From Gorillibacterium timonense (lineage in GTDB: Bacteria > Bacillota > Bacilli > Paenibacillales > NBRC-103111): a DNA stretch of 64,000 nt. This document shows positions 42,406 through 63,351 of the stretch, piece by piece. The notes below the pieces were generated by a model that saw only the letters and a program-made list of their open reading frames with translations, searched no databases and had not been told where the DNA came from. How positions within the stretch are numbered: position 1 is the first letter of the stretch; every line of letters starts with the position of its first letter. The position numbers and the translations under genes were made by a program. The stretch lies in the NCBI RefSeq assembly GCF_001457415.1, contig NZ_LN881724.1:496001-560000 (forward strand), written 5' to 3'.

Positions 42406-42558
42406 ATGGAAGCGTACCCGCGAAGGCGCTGCCGCTTTTATAATGACGGTAAACCGGAAAGAATGCCCCACGGCTTAGTCTATCTCTCCGGCTGGTTCAA
42501 CGATGACGATGAACCAGCCGATACCTTGGATTCTATGGAACAGGAGAAACCGAGATGA
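42406..42558 (+). CDS. 50-codon ORF overlapping the GH130 start
   Basis: A frame from ATG 42406 to TGA 42556 overlaps the GH130 start as ATGA. It contains FYNDGKPERMPHGLVYLSGW, followed by NDDDEPADTL. It might be a small coupled protein or the 3' end of a lost gene; the frame closes upstream at a TAG at 42367. No ribosome binding site is obvious before the ATG. I do not recognise it. Confidence 0.35.
   Translation: MEAYPRRRCRFYNDGKPERMPHGLVYLSGWFNDDDEPADTLDSMEQEKPR
42489..42520 (+). other. Hairpin before the first GH130 gene
   Basis: CGGCTGGTTCA at 42489-42499 pairs perfectly with TGAACCAGCCG at 42510-42520. There is no T run, so it is not a classical terminator. It could stabilise mRNA or bind a regulator 35 nt before the GH130 start. 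Confidence 0.4.
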
Positions 42559-43625: not shown

Positions 43626-43817
43626 ATCCACAAGCAGGCTAAGCGCCGAACCGCCGATTTGCCCGGCAGACTCTCCCGCCTGACGCTTCCTGTGATACGA
43701 TAAGAGGGTAGGTCTTGTCCTCTCCACTTATCCGTCAGGTGCTCTCCGTGAAAGATCGATAACTACTCGACGGATGGGATGACGGGATGTCGGCAAGACG
43801 GCGCAAGGAGGCGCAGC

Positions 43818-45599
43818 ATGAAGAGAAAAATGGAATCGAAGCTCCTGAAGCGAATATGGCCGAACAAGTTGAAGGGCAGGCTGACTACGCTGCTGGTGTT
43901 TGTCACCCTCACGCCGATCATCTTGATCGGCTTCACTTCCTATTATTGGTTCTTCAAAGTGCAGATGGAGAAGGTCAACGTCAACTACCAAATGCTGCTA
44001 GAGAGCGAGCGAGACGCGCTGGAGAAGGCTTTTTCCAACCTGATGAGCGTCTCTCAATTGCTGGCGGTCGGCGGCGGACTTGGCGATAACCTTACCGCCT
44101 ATTTGGACAGCAATGATCCCGCGGTGAAAACCGACGCCTTTCTGACAATTGACAAGTCGCTCACCAACATCATTTATTCCAATCCCGGGGTTCAGGGAGT
44201 GTTCCTCTATTTCGCGGGACAACCCAATCCCATTCAGTTCGAATCGGCGCCGCTTAAGCCCCAGCTCTTCGGAATGTCCCTGGAGCCTATCCCGTTCGAA
44301 CCGCTTTTTGTCGCCGGTCAACTCTATTACAGCAGCCCGCACCCGTCGGTGTTCAACTCCAGCGAGGCGACCGCGATTTCACTGATTCGCAGCATTCCCT
44401 ACGGGAACAGCGGAACCTATTACGTTTATCTGGAGACCAACCTTAACCAATACGTCTCCCGTGCCTCCACCGATAAAGGAGACAGGGCGATCTATCATCT
44501 GTTGATCGGCAGCGACCAAGCGGTGCATTACAGCGATTTGCCGTTTTCCGTCAAAGAAGGAACGATGTTGTCTGATGTGCAGCTAAGCGAGCTTCAGCAC
44601 TACCGGCAGTTCGTCACCACCGGCAAGAACGGCTGGCAGCTGATCTCGCTTGTTCCGAAGAGCGTCTACGGGAAGGAAATCAATCAGTGGCGCATTCAGT
44701 TCGCCCTCGTGCTCTTTCTCTCGCTTGCGCTCACGGTGAGCGCTTCCTCTTATGTATGGCGGATGGTCTACCGTCCGCTTCAGGGGATGAACAAGGCGAT
44801 GAACCGGTTCAGCCAGGAAGGCGATCATCTCGACCGGCTTCAGCCTGGCCTGGAGGAGTTCGAGATGCTTCATGGAAGCTTCCGGGAGATGAGCTACCGG
44901 ATCAGCGAGCTGATCAAAGAGGTGGAGCAAAAAGAGAAGCGGCGCGGGGAGCTGGAGGTCGAGAAGCTGATCTCCCAGATGAACCCCCATTTTCTCCACA
45001 ATACGCTGAATACGATTCAGTGGCTGGCTCTTGAGCAAGGACAAAAAGAAATCTACAACCTCATCAAGGTGTTTACCCGGGTGCTGCAATACAACATGGG
45101 CAAGACCAGCATGATCGTGAAGATGCGGGAAGAGATCGCTGCGCTGCAAGATTACATCGAGCTGCAAAATATCCGCTACGACCATCGCTTCAACGTCCAG
45201 GTAGCAGGAGAGGCCGATATTCTGGATGTTCCCATTCCGCGTTTTGTCCTTCAACCGATCGTGGAAAATGCATTGTATCACGGACTCGTCAGTGAGGAAG
45301 GCACCATCATCGTCAAGATCTTCCGCTACAGCGCCGGACAGATCTGCATCCGTGTGGAGGACAACGGGGCGGGCATGGAGCCGGAGAAGATCGAGGAGCT
45401 CTTGAGCGGCAAGAGAGAGCGAAGCACGGGGATCGGAATCGGGCTGAACTATGTCAAAAAAATGCTCGACGTCTATTACGGTGAGCTCGCCTCCATGCGA
45501 ATCGAAAGCCGAATGGGGCTTGGAACGACCGTGATCCTGATCGTTCCCAATAAAGTGAAGGGAGAGGAGACTCATGTTCAAGGTCTTATTGGTGGATGA
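43818..45599 (+). CDS. YesM-type sensor histidine kinase
   Basis: The 593-residue protein has a membrane segment at about 22-46, an extracytoplasmic sensor region, a second membrane segment at about 290-312 and a HAMP-like helix. The His_kinase motif ISQMNPHFLHNTLN follows (phospho-acceptor His391), then an HATPase with VEDNGAGM and GIGIGLNYV. YesM kinases respond to extracellular glycans and pair with YesN-type AraC regulators. AAGGAGG sets the ATG at 43818. The next gene overlaps by 26 nt. Confidence 0.9.
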   Translation: MKRKMESKLLKRIWPNKLKGRLTTLLVFVTLTPIILIGFTSYYWFFKVQMEKVNVNYQMLLESERDALEKAFSNLMSVSQLLAVGGGLGDNLTAYLDSNDPAVKTDAFLTIDKSLTNIIYSNPGVQGVFLYFAGQPNPIQFESAPLKPQLFGMSLEPIPFEPLFVAGQLYYSSPHPSVFNSSEATAISLIRSIPYGNSGTYYVYLETNLNQYVSRASTDKGDRAIYHLLIGSDQAVHYSDLPFSVKEGTMLSDVQLSELQHYRQFVTTGKNGWQLISLVPKSVYGKEINQWRIQFALVLFLSLALTVSASSYVWRMVYRPLQGMNKAMNRFSQEGDHLDRLQPGLEEFEMLHGSFREMSYRISELIKEVEQKEKRRGELEVEKLISQMNPHFLHNTLNTIQWLALEQGQKEIYNLIKVFTRVLQYNMGKTSMIVKMREEIAALQDYIELQNIRYDHRFNVQVAGEADILDVPIPRFVLQPIVENALYHGLVSEEGTIIVKIFRYSAGQICIRVEDNGAGMEPEKIEELLSGKRERSTGIGIGLNYVKKMLDVYYGELASMRIESRMGLGTTVILIVPNKVKGEETHVQGLIGG

Positions 45600-46623
45600 C
45601 GAACCGCTTGTGCGCCGGGGCATTCGCAGCATGCTTCCTCTTGTGGATTATGACATGGAATGGGCGGGAGATGCGTCCACGGCAGAAGAGGCGAAGGCTA
45701 TTCTGAATGAGAGACCGGTCGATCTGGTGATGACCGACATCTCCATGCCTGGTCAAGACGGATTGACCTTCATCCGCTCGTTGACGGAAACCTATCCGTC
45801 CATCTTGTCCGTCGTCATTACTTGTCACCAGGATTTCTCCTATGTGCAGCAAGCTCTCCGCTTGGGAGCGGTGGATTATATGGTGAAGACCCAGCTCGAC
45901 GATCAATCGGTGCGCGATCTGCTGGAACGGGTTTCGCGGCAGCTCTCCTTGCGCGCGGAGCGCGAGCGGACGCGGGAGGCCGAGCTCAGCTACGATCCGC
46001 TTCATTCCAAGCGGCTGTTGACCCAATGGAGTTCGCTCGCGTGGATTGCCGAGACGCCCGTCTGGCAGGAGATGCTGGAAGAAACGATGCGGGAGCTGTC
46101 GACCCCCGCGTTCAAAGAGATGCTTGCGGAAGCGGCCAAGCATTGGCCGGTCCGCTGCCCGTCGCTGCAGCAGGTGACGGATGCGCTGCTGCCCAGGCTG
46201 GACTTGCTGCATACGATAGGCGAATTGAACGGATGGACCGATGCTTATCGGAAGGAAGCGATGCAGCTGCTATGCGGCACGATGTATTCGGAGCAGGTCA
46301 TCAGCTCCATTCTCCGCGCGCTCGATCTGATGCACGGAGATTCCGAGGAGAAGCAGAGTCAGGCGGAGCTTTGCCGAGCGGTGAACTTGAGCGTGAGCTA
46401 TTTCAGCAAATGCTTCAAGGAGATCGTGGGCGTCTCCTTCGTCTATTACGTCCAAGAGGCCAATCTGCGGGAGGCTCAGCGGCTGCTCCAGACGACCAAC
46501 CTGCCCGTCTATGAGGTGGCGGAGAAATCCGGCTTCACCGATGAGAAATACTTCGGCAAAATCTTTCGTATCAAGACGGGGCATTCCCCGAGCGAGTATC
46601 GGCTCGCTTGCCGCAGCAAATAA
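45574..46623 (+). CDS. YesN-type response regulator (receiver plus AraC domain)
   Basis: The 349-residue protein has a receiver domain with Asp55 in MTDISMPG and Lys105 in YMVKT. A helical middle follows, and then an AraC DNA-binding domain (about 250-349, with VNLSVSYFSKCFKEIVG and VAEKSGFTDEKYFGKIF). It should activate the transport and enzyme genes that follow when the kinase senses the glycan. It is translationally coupled to the kinase gene. Confidence 0.92.
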   Translation: MFKVLLVDDEPLVRRGIRSMLPLVDYDMEWAGDASTAEEAKAILNERPVDLVMTDISMPGQDGLTFIRSLTETYPSILSVVITCHQDFSYVQQALRLGAVDYMVKTQLDDQSVRDLLERVSRQLSLRAERERTREAELSYDPLHSKRLLTQWSSLAWIAETPVWQEMLEETMRELSTPAFKEMLAEAAKHWPVRCPSLQQVTDALLPRLDLLHTIGELNGWTDAYRKEAMQLLCGTMYSEQVISSILRALDLMHGDSEEKQSQAELCRAVNLSVSYFSKCFKEIVGVSFVYYVQEANLREAQRLLQTTNLPVYEVAEKSGFTDEKYFGKIFRIKTGHSPSEYRLACRSK

Positions 46624-46830
46624 AACGGGTTTTCCCAGGAAAAGAAAAGGAACCGGTCCAAACAGCGGAGGAATCATTTGCGCTGAAGGGCTGGTTTTTT
46701 TGCATGTTCAGGCGAAGGAAGAAGAATTCATTCCACCCAACCGCGTAAACGGGAAGGTAACGGGCTGCGGGCAAGGGGAGCTACAATAAAGATGCGAAAT
46801 AACAGAAGTGTGTTAGGGAAGGAGTTTCAC

Positions 46831-47922
46831 ATGGCGCTTATACGATCCGAGTCAAATCCAATTCTCACCTGCCAGGATGTTCCGCCTTCGCGGGAAGGCT
46901 GGGAGGTCATCGGCGTCTTCAACGCCGGCGTTGCCCGGTTGAAGGATGAGGTGATTCTGCTGCTTCGAGTGGCCGAACGCCCGGTGCCAGGAGATGCGGA
47001 TTTCTATCTCACCCCTCTATACAATCCGGACACAAAGGAGCTGGAAGTGTGCCGCATTCCCCGTGAAGGCGCCGATTTCAGCGATCCGCGGGTGGTCCGG
47101 ACACCTGACCAAAATTACTTGACGTCGATCTCCCATATCCGCCTCGCACGGAGCCGCGACGGAATCCGCTTTGAGGTGGAAGCGATCCCTGCCCTTGAAC
47201 CCGCTTCGGAATACGAAGCCTACGGCATTGAGGACCCGCGGATCACGCCGCTTGAGGGCGGATTCATCATCACATACAGCGCAGTATCGCAGCTTGGGAT
47301 CGTTGTTCCGCTCGTCTATACGGAGGACTTCCGTTCCTTCGAACGCCGCGGGCTGATCTTCCATCCCGACAACAAGGATGTCGTGCTGTTTCCCGAGAAG
47401 ATTGGCGGCAAATACTACGCGCTGCACCGTCCGTCCATCTCGCATTACGCCAAGCCGGATATGTGGATCGCGGAATCGCCGGATCTGGAGCATTGGGGTC
47501 ATCACCGCCACGTCGCCGGCATTCGCCCCGGCAAGTGGGACGATACCCGCATCGGTGCAAGCGCCGTACCGATCCGCACCGAGCAGGGCTGGCTGGAGCT
47601 CTATCACGGAGCAGATAGCCACAACCGCTATTGTATGGGCGCGATGCTCTTCGACCTCGAGGAGCCTTGGAAGCTGATCGCCCGCTGCGAGCTTCCCTTC
47701 ATGGAGCCGGAGGAGCCATATGAAACCGATGGATTCTTCGGCAACGTCATCTTCGCTTGCGGAGCTCTTCTCGACGGGGAGACGATTCGGCTGTACTACG
47801 GCGCAGCGGATTCCTGCATGGCCTATGCCGAGGTGCCGCTTGCGGATGTGCTTGGGACACTGTCCCCTTCCAGCAAAACCGGGAAGACGGAGAACTCGTC
47901 GGACGGAGGGGCTGAGGAATGA
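46831..47922 (+). CDS. GH130 beta-mannoside phosphorylase
   Basis: The 363-residue protein carries clear GH130 features: GVFNAGVARLKDEVILLLRV near the start, YGIEDPRITP with probable catalytic Asp135, and KWDDTRIGASAVPI. Members cleave beta-1,4- or beta-1,2-mannosyl linkages with phosphate. The ISHIRLARSRDGIRF segment reminds me of the beta-1,2-mannoside group, but linkage cannot be settled by eye. The ATG at 46831 has AAGGAG upstream. It overlaps the permease gene by 4 nt (ATGA), so enzyme and importer are co-translated. Confidence 0.88.
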   Translation: MALIRSESNPILTCQDVPPSREGWEVIGVFNAGVARLKDEVILLLRVAERPVPGDADFYLTPLYNPDTKELEVCRIPREGADFSDPRVVRTPDQNYLTSISHIRLARSRDGIRFEVEAIPALEPASEYEAYGIEDPRITPLEGGFIITYSAVSQLGIVVPLVYTEDFRSFERRGLIFHPDNKDVVLFPEKIGGKYYALHRPSISHYAKPDMWIAESPDLEHWGHHRHVAGIRPGKWDDTRIGASAVPIRTEQGWLELYHGADSHNRYCMGAMLFDLEEPWKLIARCELPFMEPEEPYETDGFFGNVIFACGALLDGETIRLYYGAADSCMAYAEVPLADVLGTLSPSSKTGKTENSSDGGAEE

Positions 47923-48857
47923 AAACGCAAGCGAAGCGCATCAAGCACAAAGGCCTGCACGATCTCGTCTACAATCGGTACCTGTACGCGCTCGCGATAC
48001 CGGCCGTCATCTTCAGCATCATCTTCGCTTATTTGCCCATGATCGGCATCTCCATCGCGTTCATGAACTTTAATCCGCTGAAGGGGATTTTCCACAGTCC
48101 CTGGGTCGGACTCGAGAACTTCCGCTTCTTCTTCCGCGGAAGCGACTGGTTAGTCATCACCCGCAACACCGTTCTCTACAATGTGGCGTTCATCGCCACT
48201 GGCACGATCCTGTCGCTCACTCTCGCCATCATGCTGACCGAGCTCGGGCGCAACCTGTTCGTGCGCGTCATGCAGTCGGTGATGATTCTGCCGAACTTCA
48301 TTTCCTGGCCGATCATCGGGCTGTTCACGGTCGCCTTCTTCACCGCCGACACCGGGGTATTGGCCCACTTCTTCACTTCGCTCGGTCTGCCGCAGGTTTC
48401 CTTCTACACGAATTCGCATGTGTGGCCTTGGATTCTGGTGATCATGAATTTGTGGAAGACGGCCGGTTTCGGCGCCATCGTCTACATGGCCGCCATCGTT
48501 GGCATCGACAAGGAGCTGTACGAGGCGGCGCGAATTGACGGAGCCTCTCGCTTCTCCTGCATTTTCCGGATCACCCTGCCGCTTCTGAAGAGCACGATCG
48601 TCGTGCTGTTCCTGCTCAGCCTCGGCAATATTTTTGGCGGCAACCTGGACATGATCTACTCGCTCGTCGGGGACAACTCGTTCCTCTTCCCGACCACCGA
48701 CACCATCGACACCTATGTATTCCGCGCTCTGCGTACTACCGGCTCGATGGGCATGACCCAGGCGATCGCGCTCTATCAATCCTTGGTTGGATTCGTACTG
48801 GTTGTGGCCGCCAACAAGCTGGCCAGCAAGCTGGACAAAGACTCTGCGTTATTCTAA
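47919..48857 (+). CDS. Carbohydrate ABC transporter permease (LplB type)
   Basis: The 312-residue protein has six membrane segments and the EAA loop EAARIDGASRFSCIFRITLP that contacts the ATPase. It is the first of two permeases. As usual for this family in Bacillota, no ATPase gene is present in the locus, so a shared MsmX-type ATPase is expected. The ATG overlaps the GH130 stop. Confidence 0.93.
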   Translation: MKTQAKRIKHKGLHDLVYNRYLYALAIPAVIFSIIFAYLPMIGISIAFMNFNPLKGIFHSPWVGLENFRFFFRGSDWLVITRNTVLYNVAFIATGTILSLTLAIMLTELGRNLFVRVMQSVMILPNFISWPIIGLFTVAFFTADTGVLAHFFTSLGLPQVSFYTNSHVWPWILVIMNLWKTAGFGAIVYMAAIVGIDKELYEAARIDGASRFSCIFRITLPLLKSTIVVLFLLSLGNIFGGNLDMIYSLVGDNSFLFPTTDTIDTYVFRALRTTGSMGMTQAIALYQSLVGFVLVVAANKLASKLDKDSALF

Positions 48858-48875
48858 CGGGAAGGAGACACACCT

Positions 48876-49757
48876 ATGAAAAACACGGGCACTGACAAAT
48901 TTCTGTCCGTTCTGTTCTATATTCTCTGCGCCTGCTTTGCGATTGCCTGCTTGTATCCCTTCCTGCTGGTGGTAGCCAGCTCGCTGACCGACGAAGTGGC
49001 GCTCATGAAAGACGGGTACCGACTCTTCCCGCAGCACGTTTCCTTCGCCGCTTACAAGGCTATTTTTAGCAGCAGCACCATTCCGGACGCCTATTTGGTC
49101 ACAATCTTCGTCACCGTTGTGGGAACGGCGCTCAGTCTGCTGGTAACGAGCATGGCCGCCTATGCACTGTCGGGTAGAAGGCTCTATTATGCGGGAGGCA
49201 TCGCGATGTTCTTCTACTTCACGATGCTGTTTAGCGGCGGGATGGTCTCCAACTACATCCTGGTCACCCGCTACCTGCACCTGTCGAATACGATTTGGGT
49301 GTACATCCTGCCGGCGCTACTGTCCCCCTGGAACATGTTCCTGATGCGCAATTTCTTCAACGACATTCCGAAGGAGCTGTTCGAATCGGTGAAGATCGAG
49401 GGGGCCGGGGAATTCCGCATCCTGCGCTCCATCGTGCTGCCGCTGTCTCTGCCGGCACTTGCCACAATCGGGCTGTTCTACGCCCTCGGCTACTGGTCCT
49501 CCTGGATGCCGGCCATGCTGTATATCGACGATACGAAGCTGTTCTCCCTGCAGTACATCATCATGCAGATCATTCGCAACGTCGATATGGCTCAAAGCAT
49601 TGCCGTACAAGGAGCGCAATCCACGGCTACGCTGGCACCGGCCTACACGGTGCGGCTTGCTACCGCGGTTGTGACGGTAGGACCGATCATCTTCCTCTAT
49701 CCATTCCTCCAGCGCTATTTTGTCGGAGGCTTGAAGGTAGGGGCCATCAAAGGCTAA
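48876..49757 (+). CDS. Carbohydrate ABC transporter permease (LplC/YtcP type)
   Basis: The 293-residue second permease has six membrane segments and an EAA loop ESVKIEGAGEFRILRSIVLP, and ends with VGGLKVGAIKG, the family's typical C-terminus. It forms a heterodimer with the preceding permease. A ribosome binding site GGGAAGGAG lies before the ATG. Confidence 0.93.
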   Translation: MKNTGTDKFLSVLFYILCACFAIACLYPFLLVVASSLTDEVALMKDGYRLFPQHVSFAAYKAIFSSSTIPDAYLVTIFVTVVGTALSLLVTSMAAYALSGRRLYYAGGIAMFFYFTMLFSGGMVSNYILVTRYLHLSNTIWVYILPALLSPWNMFLMRNFFNDIPKELFESVKIEGAGEFRILRSIVLPLSLPALATIGLFYALGYWSSWMPAMLYIDDTKLFSLQYIIMQIIRNVDMAQSIAVQGAQSTATLAPAYTVRLATAVVTVGPIIFLYPFLQRYFVGGLKVGAIKG

Positions 49758-49826
49758 ACTCGGCCGCAAGGCTGGTTGGCATAATTGACTCATTCAGGTA
49801 AAGTACAGACTACGGGAGGGTTTATC

Positions 49827-51518
49827 ATGATCAACAAGAAAGTGCGCACGCTGTCGCTCTTGATCGCGTTGTGCATGCTGCTCACGCTGCTTGCTGCCTG
49901 CAGCAAAGATTCGAACAGTGCATCTCCATCGGCATCCACGGCTCCGGGTACATCCACGGAGCCCGGTGCAACGAAGCCGGACCCGGTCACCCTGAACATC
50001 ATGCTGTGGGGCGACAAGCCGAAGCAATTTGACGATGTGGTGAAGGAATTCGAGAACCGGACGAAGGACACGTTGAACATCAAGCTGAACGTGACGTTTA
50101 CGCCTCAGGCGGATTACGTCAACAAGCTGAAGCTGAAGCTGTCCGCAGGTGAACAGGTTGACGTCGCTTTCGACGCACCCTGGATGAACATGAACGCTTT
50201 TATCGCTCAAGACAACTACACCAACCTGGACAGCTACTTCAACAACGACCAATACCCGGGCTTGAAAAAAGCTTTCGGCGAAAGCTACCTGGGCAACAAC
50301 CGCTTTACCGGCGCAGACGGCAAGCTTCATGTCTACGGGGTTCCGCTCGGTCAGTACATGGGCGACCTGTCCACGGTCTACTACCGCAAGGATCTAGCCA
50401 AGAAATACGGCATGGACGACATCACGACCTATGATCAGCTGGTCTCCTTCTTCGACAAGGTGAAGGAAAACGATTCGACGTTGATTCCCTTCGTCATCAA
50501 AAACGATGGCAACTATGGAGCGCAAGCTCTGATCGACCTGAACAAGGCGCAGCAGGCTAAGTATGAGAAGGGGCTGTGGACCGTCGCTCTCGGACCGAAC
50601 GTAGAAGGCACGGTCTTGATTGAGGACAAAAAAGTAAGCGCTCTTTCGATCTCGGGAGATAAAGTGGCGAACAAATCCAGCTTCCCGGCTCCGTTCAACC
50701 AACCGGATTACAGCACCTTCAACACGATCCGCGAGTTCCACGACAAGGGGTATATCGAAAAAGAACCGATCGTCCGCAAGGATGCAGGCGGCACGTTCTA
50801 CGCTGGACGCGCAGCGGCAATGATGGAAGGCTTGTCCAACCTGGACAATGTCAAAACGCAGCTTACCGCCGGTGTACCGAATGCGGAACTGGGCTACTTC
50901 TTGACCTCGCAAACGGCGCGTGAACGCGTGCAGCCAGACCCGAACCAAGTTGTCGATTTCCGCGTCTGGAACTTCCTCGCCATTCCGAAGACTTCGGTCA
51001 ATGCCGACCGTGCGATGGCTTTCATCAATTGGATGTTTGAGAGCCAAGACAACCATGACCTGTTCGAGCTCGGGATCGAAGGCAAGAACTGGGAAAAAGT
51101 CGGTGACGACAAATACAAGGTTCCGGACGGCGTAGATGCCAGCCAGAACTATGTGTTCCCGGGCTACATGCTGACCTGGAACCCGACCTACATCCGTCTC
51201 TCCTCGAATGTGCCGGACAATCTGGTCGACGCCTTCCGCTATGAGGCAGACGAGAAAACGTATGTGAAATCGGCACTGGCCGGCTTCGCCTTCAACCAGG
51301 ATCCGGTGAAGAACGAGCTCGCCAACCCCGACTTTGCGAAGATTCCGTCGGAGGAGCTGCCCTATAAGCTCGGTATGGTGGCGAACCCGGTTGACGGACT
51401 GACGAAGCTGCAGCAAAGCCATGAAACCAATACGAAGCTGCAGAACGACATCGAGAAAATCAAGCAGGAAGCGATCAAGCAAATTCAAGCTTTCCTTGAC
51501 CAGCAGACAACGAACTAA
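49827..51518 (+). CDS. Extracellular solute-binding lipoprotein (LplA type)
   Basis: The 563-residue protein has a lipoprotein signal with lipobox LAAC (Cys25), a Ser/Thr/Pro-rich spacer and a large two-lobe binding domain. It includes VTLNIMLWGDKPKQFDDVVKEF and LNIKLNVTFTPQADYVNKLKLKLSAGEQVDV. The size and sequence match family-1 oligosaccharide binders of Paenibacillus that work with LplB/LplC permeases. GGGAGG precedes the ATG. It probably determines which oligosaccharide enters. Confidence 0.92.
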   Translation: MINKKVRTLSLLIALCMLLTLLAACSKDSNSASPSASTAPGTSTEPGATKPDPVTLNIMLWGDKPKQFDDVVKEFENRTKDTLNIKLNVTFTPQADYVNKLKLKLSAGEQVDVAFDAPWMNMNAFIAQDNYTNLDSYFNNDQYPGLKKAFGESYLGNNRFTGADGKLHVYGVPLGQYMGDLSTVYYRKDLAKKYGMDDITTYDQLVSFFDKVKENDSTLIPFVIKNDGNYGAQALIDLNKAQQAKYEKGLWTVALGPNVEGTVLIEDKKVSALSISGDKVANKSSFPAPFNQPDYSTFNTIREFHDKGYIEKEPIVRKDAGGTFYAGRAAAMMEGLSNLDNVKTQLTAGVPNAELGYFLTSQTARERVQPDPNQVVDFRVWNFLAIPKTSVNADRAMAFINWMFESQDNHDLFELGIEGKNWEKVGDDKYKVPDGVDASQNYVFPGYMLTWNPTYIRLSSNVPDNLVDAFRYEADEKTYVKSALAGFAFNQDPVKNELANPDFAKIPSEELPYKLGMVANPVDGLTKLQQSHETNTKLQNDIEKIKQEAIKQIQAFLDQQTTN

Positions 51519-51578
51519 CAAAAAATGCCTTCGGGACGGCGGTGAGACTGCCGTCCCTTTTTGAAGGAGGGAACGTGA

Positions 51579-53225
51579 ATGATCCGCAAGGTTAACCAAA
51601 TGCCGAATATGCCCGCTCCGTACAAGATGCGAGATTGGCGGGAGGTCAGCATCCAGTACGATCGTCTCGTCTTTGACTTTGAGGCACAAGGGAACTTCTT
51701 CCCGCTCATCTGGTGGGACCGCTCCCGTCGCAACGTGAATCGAGACACCTTCGGCCTGCCGTCGTATCTGGGGGCTTCCGGAGGGACGGAGAGCCATGAG
51801 GCCATCAATACGGTGGCGGCTGTTCTGGGAGCGACTCTCGCCGGTGTGGACAAGTTCAATCAGAACGGACACAACTGGGTGGAGATGCTGGAAGGCTATT
51901 TTACCGTGGAAAACGGCGAGCGCCTCTTTCTCAACCGAACCTTCCTCAAGGCGGGAAGCACCTTCTGGTACGAGCTCTATCCGCACATTCTGATATACGG
52001 ACTTGCCGCCTGCTATCCGGAAGCGACAGGGCTGCAAGCCATCATGCGGGAGACGTCGACCAAGTGGCGGATGGCCTGCGAGTCGCTCGCAGCGGGGAGC
52101 GGGGTGCCCGATTTCAATCATCTGGCTTATGATTTCACTCTCGGTCATGCCGTGGACAACGAGCGGTGGAAGGAGCCGGATGCCGCCGCAGGCATGGCCT
52201 GGATTCAGTACATGGCTTATACGCGGTGGGGAGATGATCGCAGCCTTGTGGCAGCTCGTTCCTGCCTCGAATTTCTCAAACGCTTCGAAGGTAATTCGTT
52301 CTATGAAGTGCTGCTCCCCTTCGGCGCTTACATCGCGGCGCGGATGAACGCCGAGCTGGGAGATATGCACGACGTGAGCAAGTTGGTGAACGATGTGTTC
52401 GAAGGAGACAGCGCTTGCCGTCCCGGCTGGGGCGTCATCGCCGAGAACTGGGGCGGCTATGATTGCCACGGTTTGTGCGGCAGCCTGACCGATTGGGGGC
52501 AGCGATGGGACGCGGGTCCGCCGGAGGAAGGCTGGGCGGCGAGCGATCCGATCCGCAGCGGCTACGCCTTCGCCGCCAACACGTTCGCCTTGGCGGCTCC
52601 GCTCGTGCCGCTCGTCCGCTACGACAGCCGCTTTGCCGCCGACATCGGCAAATGGATGCTGAACGCGGCCAATGCGGCGCGGCTGTTCTATCCGCGCGCG
52701 CTTCCTGCGGAGCAGCAGTCCTGTGCCTTTTACCGGCCCGACCCCGACGACGTGATCGCCTACGAGGGATTGCGCAAGTGGTGGGATGAGCAGAGCCCCT
52801 ACGCCACAGGAGACGCGATCCGCTACAGCTGGGGCTCTATCGATATCGGCCTCTACGGCTCGTCCCATGTCGGGATTTTCGGAGGAATCATTGAGCAGAC
52901 CGAGGTAGAAGGCATCCTGCGGCTGGATTGCCTGCGCACTGATTTCTTCCACCAGCCGGCGTATCCCACCTATCTTTACTTTAATCCTTACGGAGAAGAC
53001 CGTACGGTAGCCGCGAATTTGCCGCATCCCGGCATGCGCTGCTATGACGCGGTCACCCATCGGTTGCTGCCGATCCGGGAAGGTCAGCTGCTCATTCCGG
53101 CTCATGGGGCTGTGCTGACGGTCGTTTTGCCGGAAGACGGAGAAATAACGGACCGGGATGGCAAGCGGTATTGCAACGGTATCATCATCGATTATGCGAT
53201 AGACAATGGAGGAACCTCATGCTAA
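51579..53225 (+). CDS. Cytosolic member of an unrecognised enzyme-like family
   Basis: The 548-residue protein has no signal peptide or membrane segment. Helix pairs suggest an alpha/alpha-barrel followed by a beta-sandwich end. Patches shared with both exported paralogues downstream are FWYELYP (129-135), EPDAAAG (199-205), GYAFAANTF (328-336), IGKWMLNAAN (356-365), YEGLR (395-399), PYATGD (407-412), FGGII and YPTYLYFNPY (462-471). Asp201, Glu396 and Asp412 are present in all three and are candidate catalytic acids. Context among GH130 genes and a sugar importer suggests a glycoside hydrolase or related enzyme. I do not recognise the family. Confidence 0.65.
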   Translation: MIRKVNQMPNMPAPYKMRDWREVSIQYDRLVFDFEAQGNFFPLIWWDRSRRNVNRDTFGLPSYLGASGGTESHEAINTVAAVLGATLAGVDKFNQNGHNWVEMLEGYFTVENGERLFLNRTFLKAGSTFWYELYPHILIYGLAACYPEATGLQAIMRETSTKWRMACESLAAGSGVPDFNHLAYDFTLGHAVDNERWKEPDAAAGMAWIQYMAYTRWGDDRSLVAARSCLEFLKRFEGNSFYEVLLPFGAYIAARMNAELGDMHDVSKLVNDVFEGDSACRPGWGVIAENWGGYDCHGLCGSLTDWGQRWDAGPPEEGWAASDPIRSGYAFAANTFALAAPLVPLVRYDSRFAADIGKWMLNAANAARLFYPRALPAEQQSCAFYRPDPDDVIAYEGLRKWWDEQSPYATGDAIRYSWGSIDIGLYGSSHVGIFGGIIEQTEVEGILRLDCLRTDFFHQPAYPTYLYFNPYGEDRTVAANLPHPGMRCYDAVTHRLLPIREGQLLIPAHGAVLTVVLPEDGEITDRDGKRYCNGIIIDYAIDNGGTSC

Positions 53226-54175
53226 ACACATCTGTGCACATTCAAACCTGCCTTGAGATGCTGGAAGAGTACCGCGAGCGCCGCAGCGCGGCGACGGCGT
53301 CAAGCGCCCGCAAGCTCGAATTTGACCGCGTCGACGGGAAGGATGTCTACAACATCACCGCTCCCTTCGAAGACGAAGGAGAATGGAAGCTGGCCGGCCG
53401 GGTTGAAGGCCGGGATACGGAGTTCTCGGAGGTGCTGATCTTCCACCTGAACGGAGAAGTCTGGGAGCCGGATGCTCGCTATGCGCCGCTGCCGCTTCAA
53501 GATCCGTTCTACACTCGCATCGGCGGAGAGTTGATTCTGGGCGGCGTCTCCCTGATCCCGGACAAGGATGATCCTCATCGGATCGCCTCTTGGGTTACCG
53601 CTTTTCGCCGTGGTGCGGCTCTCTCCGGCTTAACTCCCTTCCTCACCGGCCCCGACCACATGAAGGACGTTCGACTGGTCGAACTGCCGGACGGGGAAAT
53701 CGGGGTTCTGAGCCGCCCGCAGGGCGAGAAGGGCGGACGGGGAAAGATCGGCTTCACCCGTGCGTCTTCTCTCACGGCCGTTACGGCGGAGGAAATCGCC
53801 GCTGCGCCTCTGTTCGAGAGTATGTTCCCCGACGAGGAATGGGGCGGAGCGAACGAAGCCCATGTGCTGAAGAACGGGCTCATCGGCGTACTCGGCCATG
53901 TGGCTAGCTTCGATGAGGCGGGCGACCGCCACTATTACCCGATGACCTTCGCCTTCGATCCCGCGACGCGGAATCGGACGCCGATGAAGATCATCGCGGA
54001 GCGCGCCGATCTGCCGGCAGGACCGGCGAAACGTCCCGATCTCGCCGATATTCTCTTCAGCGGCGGGCTGATCCGCCATGAGGACGGCACGGCCGACCTG
54101 TATGTGGGGATTAGCGACGCGGAAGCGGGCGTGATCCGGCTGCCGGACCCCTTCCTGGAATACGAGGCTTTGTAA
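53219..54175 (+). CDS. DUF1861 beta-propeller protein
   Basis: The 318-residue protein matches DUF1861 as I recall it, a five-bladed propeller related to GH130/GH43 enzymes: GKDVYNITAPFEDEGEWKLAGRVE near the start, HMKDVRLVELPDGEIGVLSRPQG in the middle and LYVGISDAEAGVIRLPDPF at the end. It probably acts on mannoside products, but no activity is assured. The ATG at 53219 overlaps the preceding stop by 7 nt and has GGAGGAA upstream, so it is coupled. A terminator follows. Confidence 0.78.
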   Translation: MLNTSVHIQTCLEMLEEYRERRSAATASSARKLEFDRVDGKDVYNITAPFEDEGEWKLAGRVEGRDTEFSEVLIFHLNGEVWEPDARYAPLPLQDPFYTRIGGELILGGVSLIPDKDDPHRIASWVTAFRRGAALSGLTPFLTGPDHMKDVRLVELPDGEIGVLSRPQGEKGGRGKIGFTRASSLTAVTAEEIAAAPLFESMFPDEEWGGANEAHVLKNGLIGVLGHVASFDEAGDRHYYPMTFAFDPATRNRTPMKIIAERADLPAGPAKRPDLADILFSGGLIRHEDGTADLYVGISDAEAGVIRLPDPFLEYEAL

Positions 54176-54541: not shown

Positions 54542-54577
54542 TAACCGCTTATTCAACAAACAGGAGGGGTAAAGGTG

Positions 54578-57500
54578 ATGAAAAAAGCAGTTGCGCACTC
54601 CGCCTTGAGCGTGCTCATGGCGGTCTCCGTATTTACAGGCGGGGTGTCGCCGACATTTGCGGCCTCGGAGGGTGCGGGTGGAGGTGGACAACCATCCGGC
54701 GCGTGGGACGGGCAGAATGCCATCCGCTATCTGAACGATTGGCCGAACCTGCCGAGTCCGTTTTTTATCAGAGACTGGAAGGGAACGGCGAATGAATTCT
54801 ACGATTTGGCGTTCGATCCCGCCGCTCTCGGAGAGAGTCTTCCGATCATAAAGACCTTTCAGGTGGATACTCCAACGAGCAGCGGTTTTACCGGTGAAAC
54901 GTTCAGCATGCCGAGCTATTTGGGAGCCTGGAACAAAGGCAATTACGCATCCACTTACAATGTGCAGGTATCCGCAGACGGAACGGATTGGACGACCGTC
55001 TACACCACCAGCAGCGGCAAGGGCATTGCGGAAGACCTTACATTTGCTCCAGTAAACGGCCGGTATATCAAGGTGAACGCCTTGAGCGGGCCTGCTGGAG
55101 CCAAGCTGTTTGAAGTGATCGAGCTTCAAGCGTATGGCGGCGGGTCGGGGAATTTGGCTTTGGGCAAGTCGGCGTCGGCCTCTTCCGCAGGCTCGAAGAA
55201 TCCGGCAGCTTATGCGACCGACGGCAATCTGTCCGCCGGTTGGAAATCAGACTCTGCTGCCAACGAATGGCTTCAGATTGACCTGGGCTCTGTCCAGCCG
55301 CTGGACAAGCTGTCCTTGCTATGGGCTTCGCCTTACGGCGAAGGAGTCAACTCGCTGGCCGCCGTCATGGGCGCGACCTTGATGGGGCGTGACATGACCA
55401 CCTACAACGGCAAAGATTGGGTCAAGATGATCGAGAACTACTACAGCAAGACCGGCGGCAGAGGCTTTGTCACGAACGGACCTGCGGCGTCGGATTCCAC
55501 GGAGAGCTTCTGGTACGATCTGTACCCGACTTTGCTGTTTACGCAAATTGCCGCTTTGTATCCCAACGCCGACAGTCTCAACGACAAAGCGCTCGATGTA
55601 GCCGACAGCTGGCTGGAAGCGCTTGCGGTTCTCGATCACAATTGGGATCACACCGGATTCTCTTTCAAGTCGATGGCGGTCACCGAAACCGGACGGTGGA
55701 CGGAGCCGGACGCTGCCATCGGTGTCGCTTATCTGGAATACATGGCTTATCTGAAGACCGGTGAGCAGAAGTATTTGGATGCCGCAGCCAAATGTATGAC
55801 GCAGGCGAGCGCGTTCGGCTACAATCCGCTTTATGAGATCGTCGGTTCCTTCGGCCCTTATTTGGCCGCTCGCATGAATGCCGACATCAATGGAGGTTTC
55901 CCGGTCAACAAGTTCCTCGATTGGGTATTCTCCGAAAGCTCTGATAGACGCAATGGATGGGGCACGGCGAACGGCCGCTGGGGAGCTTACGACGCCTACG
56001 GCTTGCTTGGCTCCACCAACGACACGAGCGGGTATGCCTTCGCGATGAACACCTTTGTCTCGGCGGGTGCGCTTGCGCCGGTGGCCCGGTACTCTCCGGA
56101 ATACAGCAAGGAGATCGGTCGGTACCTGCTCCAGGTTGCCAACAATTCCAATCTGTTCTTCCCCGACGGTCTGCCGACATCCATGCAGACGAACGCCGAA
56201 TGGTACGAGAAGACGGGGATCACTTCCATCGCTTATGAGGGAGTGCGCAACAAGGGGAAAACGCAGCCGTACGCCACAGGCGATTTTCCCGGCTATTACG
56301 GCATCTACAGCACAGCTCCGATCGGGATGCTGGCGGCGATAACCGAGAAAACGAATGTGGACGGCATCTTGAGGTTTGACTTGCTGAAGACCGATTTCTT
56401 GCATGAGAACGCGTATCCTACTTATCTGTACTATAACCCTTTTGAGACGGCGCAAACGGTCGATATCTCGGTTGGCACAGAACCGAAGGATCTGTACGAT
56501 GCCGCGACAGGACGCTTCCTTGCCCGCGGTGTAACCGGAACGGCAAGCTTCGAAATGGCGGGCGATTCCGCCGTACAGCTCGTATTGGCGCCTGCGGATG
56601 GTACGCTGACGCAAGCAAGCAATCGGGTGATGATCGACGGGGTTACCGTGGGCTATCAGTCCGCATCCGTCTATGTTTCGAATCTGGCGAATGGCGACGA
56701 GATCACCGAAGCCGTTCCACTTCAGCTTCATGTTCGCTTGCCGGAAGGCGATTCCTTGCAGGAGCTTACGATCTCGTTCGGTGGAAAAACCGTCTATACG
56801 GGAACCGAAGTCCCCGAAGATCTGCGACTGGACCCGTCTCTCAACGGCAATGGCAAACAAAATCTTCTTGCGACGGTCACCTCCAAGAACGGCCTCAAGG
56901 CAACCAGCTCGATCGTCCTCACGGCTCGAAGCCATACGGGAGGAATCGCTTATTATGCAGGTGCCGATGACTTGGCTGAATGGAAAACCGACAATACCAC
57001 CGTATCAAGTGACGGCAGCACGGCAGAACTAACGGTGAAGCCGGGCCAATCCTGGGGAACGTTGACTGGCGGCAGCTTCGAGTTGGATTTCAGCCGTCAG
57101 CCTCTATTGACGATTCAGGTGCAGGATACGACGAAGAACTGGGGCGCCAAGCTTGTCGATGAATCGACCGGGCAGCAGTACTATGTGCAGGGAGATGTCA
57201 GCAACGCCGGAGTCTTCCGCTATGAGCTGCCGGATGCTTTGAAGGTTTATTCTCAAACCGCCGACCTGTCGGGCGTGCGCAAGGTCCATCTGATTCTATT
57301 CGCGGCTGGCGGAGAAGGCTCGAAGACGGGATTCTCCAAGGTGGAGATCGGGTATGGCAAGGCGGATACCGCTTATGCGGCCGATGCGCAGGCGATCTCG
57401 CAATGGGAACCCAATCCGCTCATGCCTGCCGCTGCCAGCTTGTCCAACGACTCCTCCGCAGCGGTGATCACGGAGAATCACGAGGGGTATGGCAGTGCCG

Positions 57501-60500
57501 TCTCGCCGTTCGTACCGATCGATTTCAGCCGTGCTCCGCTTCTTACGATGAATGTGTCTGCAGTAAGCCATAACTGGTTTCTCAAGCTGCAAACCGCGGA
57601 CAACGCAGATCAGAACGGGTACTACTTGAAGGGAGACAACAGCGAAACCGGTACGATCACATTGGACCTGAATGAAGTGCTAAGCGCCAATCATGCGAAT
57701 GTATCGGGGCAAAAGCAGGTTCAGCTCTGGCTGGGCGCTTCCGGAGGAACGGGATCGAATGTGACTGTCAAAGACATTCAAATCACCTATCAGCAGCGGG
57801 GAGTCGAGTTGAACAAGGTCGTTCTGACAGCCGGAAAAAGCAATCTGTTGGAAGGTGAAGCCGTTCGTTTGGACGTATCCGGACAAATGAGCGACGGCAC
57901 CGTGGCCGATCTGACCAACGCTCGTATGGTTTATACGAGCAGCAGGCCTGATGTCCTAGCGGTTTCGGACAACGGAACGGCTGTGGCATTAAAAGCCGGT
58001 GATTCTCTGGTTTCGGTTGCCGTCACGGTTGGGGATAAGACCGTCTTCTCTAACTCACTCCCGCTTCATGTCGGGTACCTGACGAACGCCTTCTCGGCCG
58101 AAGCTGTTGATATCGCCGGCTGGGAACCGAAAACCCCCGTTACCGTTGAGCTGGCGAATGATGCGAGCCAGACGGTAATCCGGGAGCAAAAAGACGGTTG
58201 GGCTATGCTGGCATCACCCTATTTTCCGATCGATTGGGACAAGCACCCCCAGATTCAGCTTCGGGTGAATGGAGTTGAAGGGAAATGGTTTATGAAGGTG
58301 CACACGGACGATCCCGCTGATGTGAATGGCTATTATGTGCGCGGAGACAATACCGATCTCGGCGTCATCTCCTTTGATCTTCTCGATGCAGTTAAAGCTT
58401 ATCAGCCTGATGCGGTTCTGAGCGGCAAGCACATGCTCCAGCTCTATCTGGGTACTTCGGGCGGAAGCGGGGCAGAGGTCACGGTGAGCGGCGTACAGGT
58501 CATTTATCCGCCCGTACTCAGTTCCGTTCGCTTAACTGCCGACAAAACCAATTTCTCTGCCGGCGAGACAGGTTCGCTGCGAGTAGTTGGTACGATGAGC
58601 GATGGTTCGACAGCTGATCTGTCTGTAGCTCACGTCACCTATTCCAGCAGCAAGCCGGAGGTTGTGGAAGTGACGGAAGGCGGTCTCATCCGGGCGGGTC
58701 AAGCGGGAACGGCGGAGCTGTCGGCTGTCGTGACCTTGGGAGACGTAACAGTGGCAGCCGATTCCTTGACCGTCAACGTTTCGAACCGCATAACGGCGTT
58801 CAGCCAAACGGCAGCGGACATTCTTCGTTGGCAGCCGGTCGGCATTATGCCCGCAACAACTCGTTCGGACAACTCCGGTAACACGGTCGTTACCGAAAAT
58901 AACGGGGGGTGGGGAGCGATAGGGTCCTCCTACTTCGATCTGGATTTGGACCGTTCTCCCCGTCTTACCATCGACATCAAGGATGTCAGCTCCAATTGGT
59001 TTCTGAAGCTGCACACGGACGATCCAGCGGATACCTACGGGTATTACCTGAAAGGAGATAACCGGGAAACGGGCAAATTTGACTTGAACGTAGCCGACCT
59101 CCTGTCATCGGAGGGAATGAGCGGCGTTCAGCATGTTCAATTGTGGCTGGGCGCTTCCGGCGGAACCGGAGCAACGGTTACAGTGGGTAGTCTGGAGATC
59201 ACCTATGCAGACGCGCCGACGCCAACGCCGACACCGGAACCGTCGGAAGATCCGACACCAACACCTACACCGGTGCCGTCGGAAGACCCGACACCTACGC
59301 CGACACCAACACCAGCACCGTCGGAAGACCCGACTCCAACGCCGACACCGACTCCATCGGAAGACCCGAAGCCAACACCAACACCGACGCCGTCGGAAGA
59401 TCCGACGCCGACTTCAACGCCGACATCAACGTCGAAACCGACACCGACTCCAGTTGTTACCGAATCGGAGGTACGCTTGGCATTAGCTGAATCGGCGATC
59501 ACCCTTGACACGTCAGAGGTCGAGGGGCATGACCAAACCGTTGCAACCCTGCATGGAGAGGACCTGATTGCGGTCATCGATCAATTGCGACTGGCCTCTG
59601 TAGGGACGGATTCAAGCGTGCCGAAGGTGATTCGAGTGAATCTCGAGGGTACATCAACCGGGGATATCAAGGTCGTCATTCCCGCCAGCGCAGCCGCTTA
59701 CGCCCAAAAGACACTGCCCAACGTCTTGTTATCCGTGTCCGATTCGGCCGGCGGATACCGCTTGCCTCTTGACGCGGTCGATCTGCCTTCCCTGGCAAAA
59801 TCACTCGGAACCGATCTCGACAGCCTCACCCTTGTCATCCGCATCGCCAAGGTGTCGGAGCAGGACAGCGATCAGGTTCGAGCAAGCCTGGCGCGGGTTG
59901 GCGCAACCCCTCTCGCCGCTGCCCTTGACTTTACCGTCACGGCTGAAGCAGGAGGCCGACAAGCGCTCGTCACGAACTATGGCGGCACCTATGTGGAAAG
60001 GACGATTCACGTCCCGGCATCGGTCAGCCCAGCCCGTACGACCGCGGTCAGGATTGATCCTTCTACGGGCCAAGTCTCCTCTGTTCCCGCTCGGTTCCAG
60101 GCTGTGAAGGACGGAACCGATGTGACGATTCTGAGTACCAGCAACAGCAGCTATACCGTGGCTTCGGTAAACAAGACGTTCACGGATATGGACGGACATT
60201 GGGCGAAGGCCGACATCGAATTGCTCGCGTCCAAGCTGGTCGTGAACGGCACGACAGCGTCGCAATATGAGCCGGATCGGCAGGTGACGCGCGCGGAATT
60301 TACCGCGATGCTCGTTCGGGCTCTTGCTTTGGAACCATCGAGTGACGCAGCATCTCGGTTCCAGGATGTACGACCGGACGCTTGGTATGCAGGTGCGGTT
60401 AGCGCCGCAAGCGAAGCGCGTTTGGTGCAAGGGACGGGGCCGAACCGATTCGACCCCGACAGCACCCTCACGCGGGAGCAAATGGCCGTCATGACGGCCG

Positions 60501-60760
60501 CGGCTTTAAGCTTCGCGCAGCAGAGATCGGCTTCTGCCCCCAATGCAACCGCCGCGCTTGCCGGATTTGCTGATGCTTCTGCCATCAGCTCATGGGCAAG
60601 GGACGCGGTGGCCGCACTGGCCGAAGCTAAGATCATGTGCGGCGCATCGACCTCCGCATTCGAGCCTGGCTCCGCTGTGACCCGGGCGCAGGCGGCAGCC
60701 GTCGTGAGCCGTCTTCTGCAGCAGGTCTCGTTTCTGGATGGTCGGGACTCTATCGATTAA
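54578..60760 (+). CDS. Giant SLH-anchored multidomain protein, same unknown enzyme family
   Basis: The protein has about 2060 residues. Order: signal peptide (1-30); the unknown enzyme domain (about 45-680) interrupted at 125-254 by a permuted F5/8 C domain; an Ig-like linker (690-785); four related beta-sandwich modules (about 788-927, 930-1073, 1166-1312, 1405-1545), each with GYYLKGDN- and [10 protein letters not shown]-like motifs; two Big2-like domains between them (1078-1165, 1315-1402); a Pro-Thr-Ser-Glu-Asp linker (1548-1626); a mixed domain (1630-1862); and three SLH repeats (about 1866-2045). SLH repeats bind pyruvylated cell-wall polysaccharide, so it sits on the cell surface. CAGGAGGGG precedes GTG 54575/ATG 54578. 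Family patches EPDAAIG, YEGVR and PYATGD are kept. Confidence 0.8.
54947..55336 (+). other. Circularly permuted F5/8 type C domain insertion
   Basis: These 390 bp encode residues 125-254 of the SLH protein. The second half of a discoidin domain ([18 protein letters not shown] to IELQAYG) comes first, then a GGSG linker, then the first half ([12 protein letters not shown] to LSLLWASPY). Removing it restores a gap-free alignment with the cytosolic paralogue (SYLGA, then 11 variable residues, to AAV). TTACG flanks the segment at 54943-54947 and 55333-55337. Confidence 0.8.
59216..59452 (+). repeat. PTPTPxPSEDP linker repeats
   Basis: The linker is made of about six copies of a unit encoding [12 protein letters not shown], with the DNA core CCGTCGGAAGACCCGAC repeated with small changes. 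It links the binding modules to the wall-anchoring part. Such arrays change length by slippage. The mannanase at 10284 has a comparable but SED-free linker. Confidence 0.75.
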
Positions 60761-60840: not shown

Positions 60841-63351
60841 ATGAAACGACTAACCAGAGGACTCACCCTCTTAACGGCTGTAAGCTTGGTCGGCGGTATC
60901 GTCACCGCCGGTCCCGTTGCGGTGAAAGCTGATTCAACGAGCCAACCGGTGACACAAAGCTCGATCCCGTATCTGGAATACTACGTGCCGAACAGCCCTG
61001 CTAATTATGTCATGAAGGACTGGTACAACACCGCGCGTGCTTTTGATTCGTTCGTATTCAACTTCACCCAATCCGGCACTAACTTGCCTGTAGCCGCTTG
61101 GGATGACACCCACTACAACATGAACTCCACCACCTTCAAAATGCCCACTTACATCACCGGCGCTCCTCACAACACGATGCCGGCAGACGGTGCGCAGGAA
61201 GCGCTCGCGGCTTTATCCGCCGTCCTCGGCGGCTCACTGGTGGGGATCGATAAGAGCAATCAAACGGGCAGCGGCTATAGCAACGTGAACTTTGTCCGCA
61301 TGATTCAAACCTTCAAAAACTCGGAAGGGATCATCTCCAATAATCCGACCTCTCTCTCGGGCGGTCAGGAATTCTGGTACATGCTGACACCAACTTTGCA
61401 GTTTGCGGCTCTCGATTCTCTCTATCCCGGCGTAACCGATATGGATACGATCATGCGGACGGTGTCCGACAAATGGTATGACGCCATCGTCAAGATGGGC
61501 GGCGCCAATGTGAATTTCAACTATTACACGTACAATTTCACGACAAACGCACCGGTGACGGGACCGTATTCCCAACCGGACGCTGCCGCTGGCGCGGGTC
61601 TGCTCATGTATTACGCCTATCAAAAATTCGGGGATGCCAAATTTCTGAACGCTGCGACCTGGTGCATGCAGTTTTTGCAAAATCTTTCGTTTAACCCGCT
61701 CTACGAGGACTTGGCGTATTTTGCCCCGCTCCTGGGAGCGCGGTTGAACGCGGAGCAGGGTCAGAACAACGACATTGCTAAAATGCTCAATTGGACTTTC
61801 ACGGACAGCGCTCCGAGCCAGCGTAAAGGGTGGGGGATGACCACCGGCAACTGGGGAGTAGCGGAAGCAAACGGCTTGCTCGGAAGCACGACGGACACCA
61901 AGGGCTATGCGTTCTCGATGAACACGTTTATCGGAGCCATGGGACTTGTGCCGGTGGCGCGTTACGATCAGCAGTATGCACGAGCGATCGGCAAGTGGAT
62001 GCTGAACGCGGCGAGCAATTCCCGGTTCTTCTATGCCGACGCCCTGGATTCCACTCATCAGGATGGCCTTTCCTGGACGGGAGATCAGGGCCGAGTCGTG
62101 CCTTATGAAGGGCTGCGCCATTACAAGAGAGTTGGATATAGCACTCCGTATCAGATCGACTATAATACGTATCCATTCGCGACCGGAGACGCGGTGGGCT
62201 GGAATTTTGGCACCAATTTTGGCGTCTACTCGGGGGCCTTGTCCGGCGTGTTCGGCGGCATGATCTCGACGACGAACGTAAATAAGATTCTGCAGCTGGA
62301 TCTGAACAAGGCGGACTTCTTCCCGGTGGACGGGTATCAAACTTACCTGTACTACAACCCTTATGAGACCAGCCAATCCGTCCAAATTGATGTGGGCGCA
62401 GCTTCGAAGGATCTGTACGATGCGGTGAGCGATACCAATCTGAAGACGAATGTCAGCGGAGTCCAATCCTTCACGATTGCCCCCGATTCGGCTGTCGTGC
62501 TGGTGCTGGCACCTGCAAACGGAACGAAAACTTACAGCGGCCAAACCATCTTGATCAACTCCAAGTTCGTCGGCCACCGCCCGGTGACGAATTTGGCATC
62601 CGGCAAGACGGCGACCGCCAGCTCGACGGTAAACGGCAACGTGGCAGCGGGAGTCACCGACGGCACGACGGCTACCCGCTGGGAATCGGCGACCAGTGAT
62701 CCGCAGTGGATTCAAGTCGATCTGGGCAGCTCCAAAACCGTCGGCAAGGTCGTCCTGAACTGGGAAGCGGCGTATGCCAAAACCTATCAAATCCAAACCT
62801 CTCTTGACGGAACCAACTGGACGAACGTGTACAGTACAACGGCCGGTACCGGCGGGGTCGAACCGATCTCCTTTTCACCCGTGAACGCTCGGTATGTGAG
62901 AATGTACGGGACGGCGCGGGGAACCAGCTGGGCTTATTCCCTCTATGAATTCGGGGTGTATGCGCCGGATGATCTCGCGCGGAATCGCCCCGTATCCGCC
63001 AGCTCGACGGTGAACGGGAACCTTCCGACATTTGTAGTCGATGGCACGACGGCAACCCGCTGGGAGTCGACGGCCAGCGACCCGCAGTGGCTTCAAATCG
63101 ATCTGGGCAGCTCGAAGACCGTCGGTAGAACGATTCTCCGCTGGGAAGCGGCTTACGGCAAAACCTATCAAATTCAGTTATCGACGGACGGAACAACCTG
63201 GACCAACGCTTACAGCACCGTCTCGGCAACGGGAGGGGTGGAGAATATCACGTTCACACCCACAACCGCCCGGTATGTGAGGCTCTCCTGCACGCAGAGG
63301 GGAACCACGTACGCGTATTCCTTGTATGACCTGGAGCTGTACGCAAACTGA
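60841..63351 (+). CDS. Secreted member of the unknown enzyme family with two F5/8 C domains
   Basis: The 836-residue protein has a signal peptide (1-31), the unknown enzyme domain (about 40-575) and two C-terminal discoidin-type F5/8 C domains (about 582-708 and 710-836). These are nearly alike (both with WESATSDPQW- or WESTASDPQW-type patches) and probably bind a polysaccharide. Family patches are QPDAAAG, GYAFSMNTF, IGKWMLNAAS, YEGLR, PFATGD and YQTYLYYNPY. The Glu of EPDAA is Gln here, so that residue is not the conserved catalyst. GGAGG precedes the ATG at 60841. It has no SLH domains and should be released. Confidence 0.75.
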   Translation: MKRLTRGLTLLTAVSLVGGIVTAGPVAVKADSTSQPVTQSSIPYLEYYVPNSPANYVMKDWYNTARAFDSFVFNFTQSGTNLPVAAWDDTHYNMNSTTFKMPTYITGAPHNTMPADGAQEALAALSAVLGGSLVGIDKSNQTGSGYSNVNFVRMIQTFKNSEGIISNNPTSLSGGQEFWYMLTPTLQFAALDSLYPGVTDMDTIMRTVSDKWYDAIVKMGGANVNFNYYTYNFTTNAPVTGPYSQPDAAAGAGLLMYYAYQKFGDAKFLNAATWCMQFLQNLSFNPLYEDLAYFAPLLGARLNAEQGQNNDIAKMLNWTFTDSAPSQRKGWGMTTGNWGVAEANGLLGSTTDTKGYAFSMNTFIGAMGLVPVARYDQQYARAIGKWMLNAASNSRFFYADALDSTHQDGLSWTGDQGRVVPYEGLRHYKRVGYSTPYQIDYNTYPFATGDAVGWNFGTNFGVYSGALSGVFGGMISTTNVNKILQLDLNKADFFPVDGYQTYLYYNPYETSQSVQIDVGAASKDLYDAVSDTNLKTNVSGVQSFTIAPDSAVVLVLAPANGTKTYSGQTILINSKFVGHRPVTNLASGKTATASSTVNGNVAAGVTDGTTATRWESATSDPQWIQVDLGSSKTVGKVVLNWEAAYAKTYQIQTSLDGTNWTNVYSTTAGTGGVEPISFSPVNARYVRMYGTARGTSWAYSLYEFGVYAPDDLARNRPVSASSTVNGNLPTFVVDGTTATRWESTASDPQWLQIDLGSSKTVGRTILRWEAAYGKTYQIQLSTDGTTWTNAYSTVSATGGVENITFTPTTARYVRLSCTQRGTTYAYSLYDLELYAN

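Follow-up and report, generated by a model that had tools for sequence, protein, structure and literature searches.

A circularly permuted discoidin domain within the enzyme-type domain of an SLH protein of Gorillibacterium timonense

A large SLH protein of Gorillibacterium timonense carries a circularly permuted discoidin (F5/8 type C, CBM32-like) domain within an otherwise continuous enzyme-type domain. The gene lies in a stretch of 64,000 nucleotides that was analysed as a whole, hereafter the window, along with two paralogues of the host domain that are free of the insert. In the explanation that best accounts for the data, and which is probably correct, a discoidin module in a permuted register was inserted in the loop before Glu256 of an SLH-anchored (alpha/alpha)-barrel domain. 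The features on which the argument rests are as follows.

51579–53225, + strand: host-domain paralogue used as insert-free comparator, without a signal peptide (by eye) and without the insert
54575–60760, + strand: host gene, encoding the SLH protein (P0001), 2061 aa, GTG start; the ATG at 54578 is an alternative
54719–54943, + strand: N-terminal part of the host domain, residues 49–123, reaching the insertion loop
54943–54947, + strand: TTACG, left border
54944–55138, + strand: C-terminal half of the discoidin domain, placed first, ending ...IELQAYG
55139–55150, + strand: GGSG linker between the old C- and N-termini
55151–55336, + strand: N-terminal half of the discoidin domain, placed second, ending ...LLWASPY
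55333–55337, + strand: TTACG, right border, 390 bp after the left copy
55337–56644, + strand: remainder of the host domain, residues 255–690, beginning with G255 and the conserved E256
60841–63351, + strand: paralogue whose host domain is uninterrupted and precedes two F5/8C copies in tandem

Order and fold of the insert

The insert extends from Tyr124 to Tyr254 of the open reading frame at 54575 (54944–55336) and is separated by a single residue, Gly255, from a glutamate, Glu256, that is conserved across the host family. A preceding reading of the sequence alone had described residues 125–254 as the two halves of an F5/8 type C domain in swapped order, joined by a GGSG linker. The linker is present, and the order of the Pfam matches bears out the swap, with the insert beginning at residue 124. 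PF00754 matches the SLH protein in two stretches and scores 68.1 bits, above its cut-off of 28.2, which assigns the protein to the F5/8 type C family; the better stretch places residues 200–254 on profile positions 2–58. The best stretch of PF22633 (NedA-like) places residues 122–167 on positions 45–91, the end of that profile. The end of the domain thus precedes its beginning; as the C-terminal half comes before the N-terminal half, in departure from the canonical N-to-C order, the insert is classed as a permuted variant and not as a canonical F5/8 type C member.

Put back into normal order, the insert aligns with the F5/8C copies of the gene at 60841, as the same reading had held, with LLWASPYASTY facing LNWEAAYAKTY across the new join and with 41% identity to the first copy and 34% to the second. 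A third gene in this genome (L043) has an F5/8C copy that is 38% identical to the insert. The two halves of the insert best match different discoidin copies, and in a tree in which it is one of 79 F5/8C domains the insert stands on a long end branch (1.12).

Structure prediction of the insert alone, a check proposed at the outset, returned the beta jelly roll of F5/8 type C domains with high confidence (AlphaFold, pLDDT 94.1, pTM 0.88). The alignment supplied consisted of 21 windows from tandem arrays, so that the model demonstrates compatibility with a closed domain and is not proof of one. Residues 1–65 of the model fit residues 64–131 of 4zz5 (64 residues, 1.0 Å) and residues 66–131 fit residues 44–115 of 4gwj (66 residues, 1.9 Å); in the predicted structure, each half fitting a solved discoidin is the picture expected of a permuted domain. 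A model of the whole host domain reached pLDDT 71–98 in most blocks outside the insert, 63–78 just upstream of it and under 50 in the insert region, where no other row of the alignment covers the insert.

The host domain and its uninterrupted homologues

The SLH protein, probably a bacterial surface enzyme, has what looks by eye like a signal peptide at its start; its enzyme-like domain is followed by modules of CIA30-like and Big type, then a stretch rich in Pro and Thr, and three SLH domains. Three repeats at a spacing of about 711 bp (57572–59184) lie 3' of the enzyme domain, in the CIA30-like/Big-type part.

The host part adopts an (alpha/alpha) barrel in the model, with its best structural match in GH76 (6u4z; Z 23.3, 325 residues, 3.5 Å), while other (alpha/alpha) families score Z 18–20; Foldseek ranked GH127 first, with low TM-scores. 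The GH76 sequence profile does not recognise the host domain, which in a profile search had no Pfam or NCBIfam match of its own and no PDB sequence match. Four members of the host-domain family, searched against Pfam at E up to 10, fell into no family, in a range where the HMMER filters drop most matches above about 0.1; the members tested likewise had no Pfam or PDB sequence match. Because other (alpha/alpha) families also score 18–20, the host domain is regarded as sharing the GH76 fold and not GH76 membership. The family is widespread: of 588 candidate stretches in named genomes, at least 544 are relatives, and Bacillota, Bacteroidota, Planctomycetota and Asgard archaea MAGs are among the sources named in their titles.

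Within the genome itself the host domain recurs in the paralogue at 60841 (60967–62566) and in the third gene (L043:2985–4700), in addition to the cytosolic paralogue. Removal of the insert had been said to leave the host domain aligned with the cytosolic paralogue without a gap. This holds at the site, where the loop of the SLH protein shrinks to 8 residues, equal to that of the paralogue, but further upstream in the domain P0001 has an insertion of 4 residues. Uninterrupted homologues, which the sequence-only reading had suggested seeking, were found, and none of those examined shares the insert. When aligned with the insert excised, the 32 whole-genome homologues, of which three belong to the same genome as P0001, have no insert at the site (33 rows including P0001, four fragments having been removed beforehand). 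The same is true of 79 of 80 named-genome loci, the exception, L103, ending before the site; the two sets overlap, and the 80 are the best 80 of the at least 544 relatives. The site loop, measured from the conserved Tyr-x-Gly region to the conserved Glu, is 4–14 residues long at the named loci and reaches about 15 among the whole-genome homologues.

The residues that surround the insert are well preserved. In a 108-row alignment, 53 positions show conservation of 93% or more outside P0001. The SLH protein retains the common residue at 51 of them, E256, E421, E555, D570 and D607 included; at the other two it has R in place of K (516) and F in place of Y (529). Judged by this conservation, the host domain of the SLH protein looks functional. 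Discoidin domains were found in the host-domain frames of four of the 80 named loci (L083, L085, L125 and L142), always after the enzyme domain. L083 (L083:2727–4764) is the closest host-domain homologue among the matches listed, with 51% identity to the P0001 host domain in the best segment; its reading frame is broken into two open stretches, one after the other, and it has a C-terminal discoidin.

The insert has so far been seen in this genome, the only one of its genus in the set. Across the 104 genomes of the family, with the best 11 candidates at most scored per genome, the listed matches outside the own genome cover query residues 78–219 only, that is, the discoidin part and its edges. 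No relative sharing the insert appeared in genome draws from the order (392), sister families (394) and phylum (398), among the best 80 of at least 544 named-genome relatives or in a single-sequence scan, in scans from which own-genome or very near records may be excluded. The order-level host-domain homologues belong to a family (f10) other than that of the window (f1).

Origin from tandem discoidin arrays and the border repeats

Compared with its own genome by tblastn, the insert aligns without permutation over the junction of the two F5/8C copies of the gene at 60841 (residues 3–136 of 137, E 6.8e-24; junction window 62773–63156). It aligns over array junctions in other genomes too, 36 of the 104 family genomes giving a match, its own included. 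Among 29 loci from other genomes, 27 consist of adjacent discoidin copies in normal order; L028 has copies separated by spacers, in L030 a partial copy precedes a full one, and a lone permuted copy occurs in none of the 29. Between equivalent points the insert measures 131 residues, and the array windows 128–146 residues in 42 of 43 and 157 in one. The Gly-rich type of linker seen in the insert is also present between some array copies (EVYGTGG..., EVYGSVGNLAMG).

Since the insert aligns unpermuted over the junction in the 60841 gene, it is most simply explained as one period of an array in shifted register. Such an order needs no circle, because an array cut mid-copy at two equivalent points yields it directly. 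In the mechanism proposed here, one 390-bp period of a tandem discoidin array would have been cut mid-domain in both copies and copied into the host loop in a single step, by illegitimate recombination, and the ordinary linker between copies would thereby have become the linker of the permuted domain. The search for a donor gave a best identity of 41% and an end branch of 1.12, with no identifiable donor array; with this degree of divergence the insertion event itself is invisible. A recent transfer from the neighbouring 60841 gene was considered and rejected, its copies being only 41% and 34% identical to the insert. Nor is there a compositional signal of a recent foreign origin, GC3 being 0.656 in the insert against 0.651 and 0.706 in its two flanks.

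The sequence-only reading had pointed to TTACG at both borders as the mark of a microhomology-driven insertion of a circular or tandem copy. The repeats are indeed there, starting at 54943 and 55333. Runs of at least 5 at position pairs 390 bp apart occur at 51 of 5683 pairs in the host gene (0.9%, a raw figure that ignores codon constraint). At the site, L083 reads Gln-Tyr-Gly-Glu (CAA TAT GGT GAA) and P0001 without its insert would read Asn-Tyr-Gly-Glu, so that Tyr-Gly is possibly older than the insert; its presence in the host before insertion is plausible on this comparison. L084 and L085, the other two nearest among the matches listed, have no Tyr at the site. At the break point the discoidin itself has Tyr-Ala or Tyr-Gly as its motif, and for this reason TTACG is weak evidence. 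An array piece slightly longer than one period carries Tyr-Ala/Gly twice, and a repeat at both ends is therefore expected anyway. The insert is moreover too diverged, by the identity and branch length given above, for a scar of 5 bp to be trusted. Such a repeat would suit a microhomology-driven event without proving one: a host Tyr-Gly is plausible, but the motif also belongs to the discoidin, and the circle is unnecessary.

A circular DNA intermediate is possible in principle, and could take the form of a single discoidin copy, or an excised circle of one period, that entered a TTACG of the host through one crossover. The exact 390-bp period, the TTACG at both borders and the Tyr-Gly-Glu already at the site in L083 would all suit it. 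A tandem piece would, however, bring the repeat as well, the Tyr-Ala/Gly being the discoidin's own, and the linker of the insert resembles some of those between array copies. None of the 7 matches to the insert in the own genome shows a 390-bp array, the period of the 60841 pair being 381 bp, and the sequence has diverged too far for scar analysis, all of which makes such a crossover improbable. Misassembly of the insert is also unlikely, and a chimera in which two discoidin fragments were falsely joined into an enzyme gene is scarcely credible: the 7 genome matches are not confusable with the insert (at best 42% over half and 37% over the whole), the frame is open through 2061 codons, the contig spans 2.4 Mb and the composition is continuous over the insert.

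Possible role and relation to known permuted domains

Two GH130-type proteins are encoded in a sugar-utilisation locus at 42555–54175, together with a two-component system (histidine kinase and response regulator), two ABC permeases, one solute-binding protein and a DUF1861 protein; two host-domain paralogues also lie in the neighbourhood. Near genes of the host family, a GH130 relative was found in 27 of 114 loci and DUF1861 in 10 of 114, counts drawn from overlapping sets with short flanks and including one own-genome locus. The host domain is probably a carbohydrate-active enzyme, and on a fair reading it may act on mannose-type glycans.

More tentatively than the origin from an array, the new termini may lie in the CBM32 sugar-binding loop, which would bring the module near the active-site rim as an accessory surface. 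In structure comparison the first residue of the insert falls on residue 579 of sialidase 1eut, in a loop that carries galactose-binding residues there and is the sugar-binding one in classical CBM32 domains. With its first residue in that loop, the insert would point its ligand face at the enzyme. Subfamily motifs (TRW, WEAAY and RGT..GYSL) have been lost, and sugar binding may therefore be gone; DGN.S and the C-terminal Glu are kept. That the permutation itself is functional, the termini having moved to the ligand face and aimed it at the catalytic mouth so as to add subsites or an active-site lid, is doubtful; were it true, the permuted discoidin would reach an arrangement closed to normal-order binding modules fused at protein ends. 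There is a better, though still less than even, chance that the insert is an idle permuted spacer, a relic without ligand in a tolerant loop, which would alter the role and leave order and origin as described. The loss of RW, WEAAY and GYSL, the varying loop lengths of the homologues, which suggest a tolerant site, and the other modules of the SLH protein speak for an idle spacer; the open frame, the ordered fold predicted with high confidence, the retained DGN.S and C-terminal Glu and a GC3 within the range of the neighbours speak against it.

Natural permutation of a carbohydrate-binding module has a precedent in CBM36 and CBM60, which, in work by Montanier et al. of 2010, were reportedly found to be two families related by circular permutation. 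The present case differs in that a single F5/8C copy is permuted and sits within a catalytic-type domain. The closest solved sequence relatives are DD1 and DD2 of the chitosanase/glucanase of Paenibacillus sp. IK-5 (4zxe, 4zz5 and 2rv9), which match each half; they are chitosan-binding modules in normal order and their motif residues differ from those of the insert. A Foldseek search of the PDB with the insert gave no match at E ≤ 0.001, and its top match was 6eon (TM 0.71 by insert length, E 0.0037). This is the galactanase BT0290, whose residues 628–761 superpose on the insert in sequential order (120 residues, Z 12.4; next-best 5.5), so that the strand order of the insert has apparently already been solved. 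The 6eon chain was not among the hits when the insert was used for a sequence search at E up to 1. Residues 628–761 of 6eon may themselves be a permuted discoidin-type domain; GH35 genes, tried as a route to relatives of that domain, gave four strong frames of 617–634 codons, judged too short to contain it.

As an enzyme interrupted by a permuted domain, the SLH protein recalls the swaposin, or plant-specific insert (PSI), of plant aspartic proteinases, a circularly permuted domain within an enzyme (PMC3320104). Relatives of the swaposin occur as tandem repeats, which hints at how the swapped order arose (PMC3320104). In both cases an enzyme is interrupted by a permuted domain whose family also occurs as tandem repeats; in the SLH protein the interrupted domain is continuous in the homologues examined and both flanks are conserved. 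They differ in that the swaposin is a helical, saposin-like domain of plants, while the insert is a beta jelly roll in a bacterial surface protein, from one genome. The initial remark that clean permuted binding-domain insertions are rare is fair, but the kind was already known from the swaposin (PMC3320104). Among the open-access titles listed in literature searches, none dealt with a permuted discoidin. A permuted domain in an enzyme and a permuted carbohydrate-binding module are thus both known already, and the bacterial discoidin adds an example.

Similar cases may escape notice, because searches with normal-order profiles return two separate stretches. The SLH protein offers a clear bacterial example of how one out-of-register repeat of an array could give a permuted domain that is already inside an enzyme, with many uninterrupted homologues available for comparison with the insert-bearing gene. 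It also suggests a route for engineering, in which permuted binding modules would be placed inside catalytic domains.
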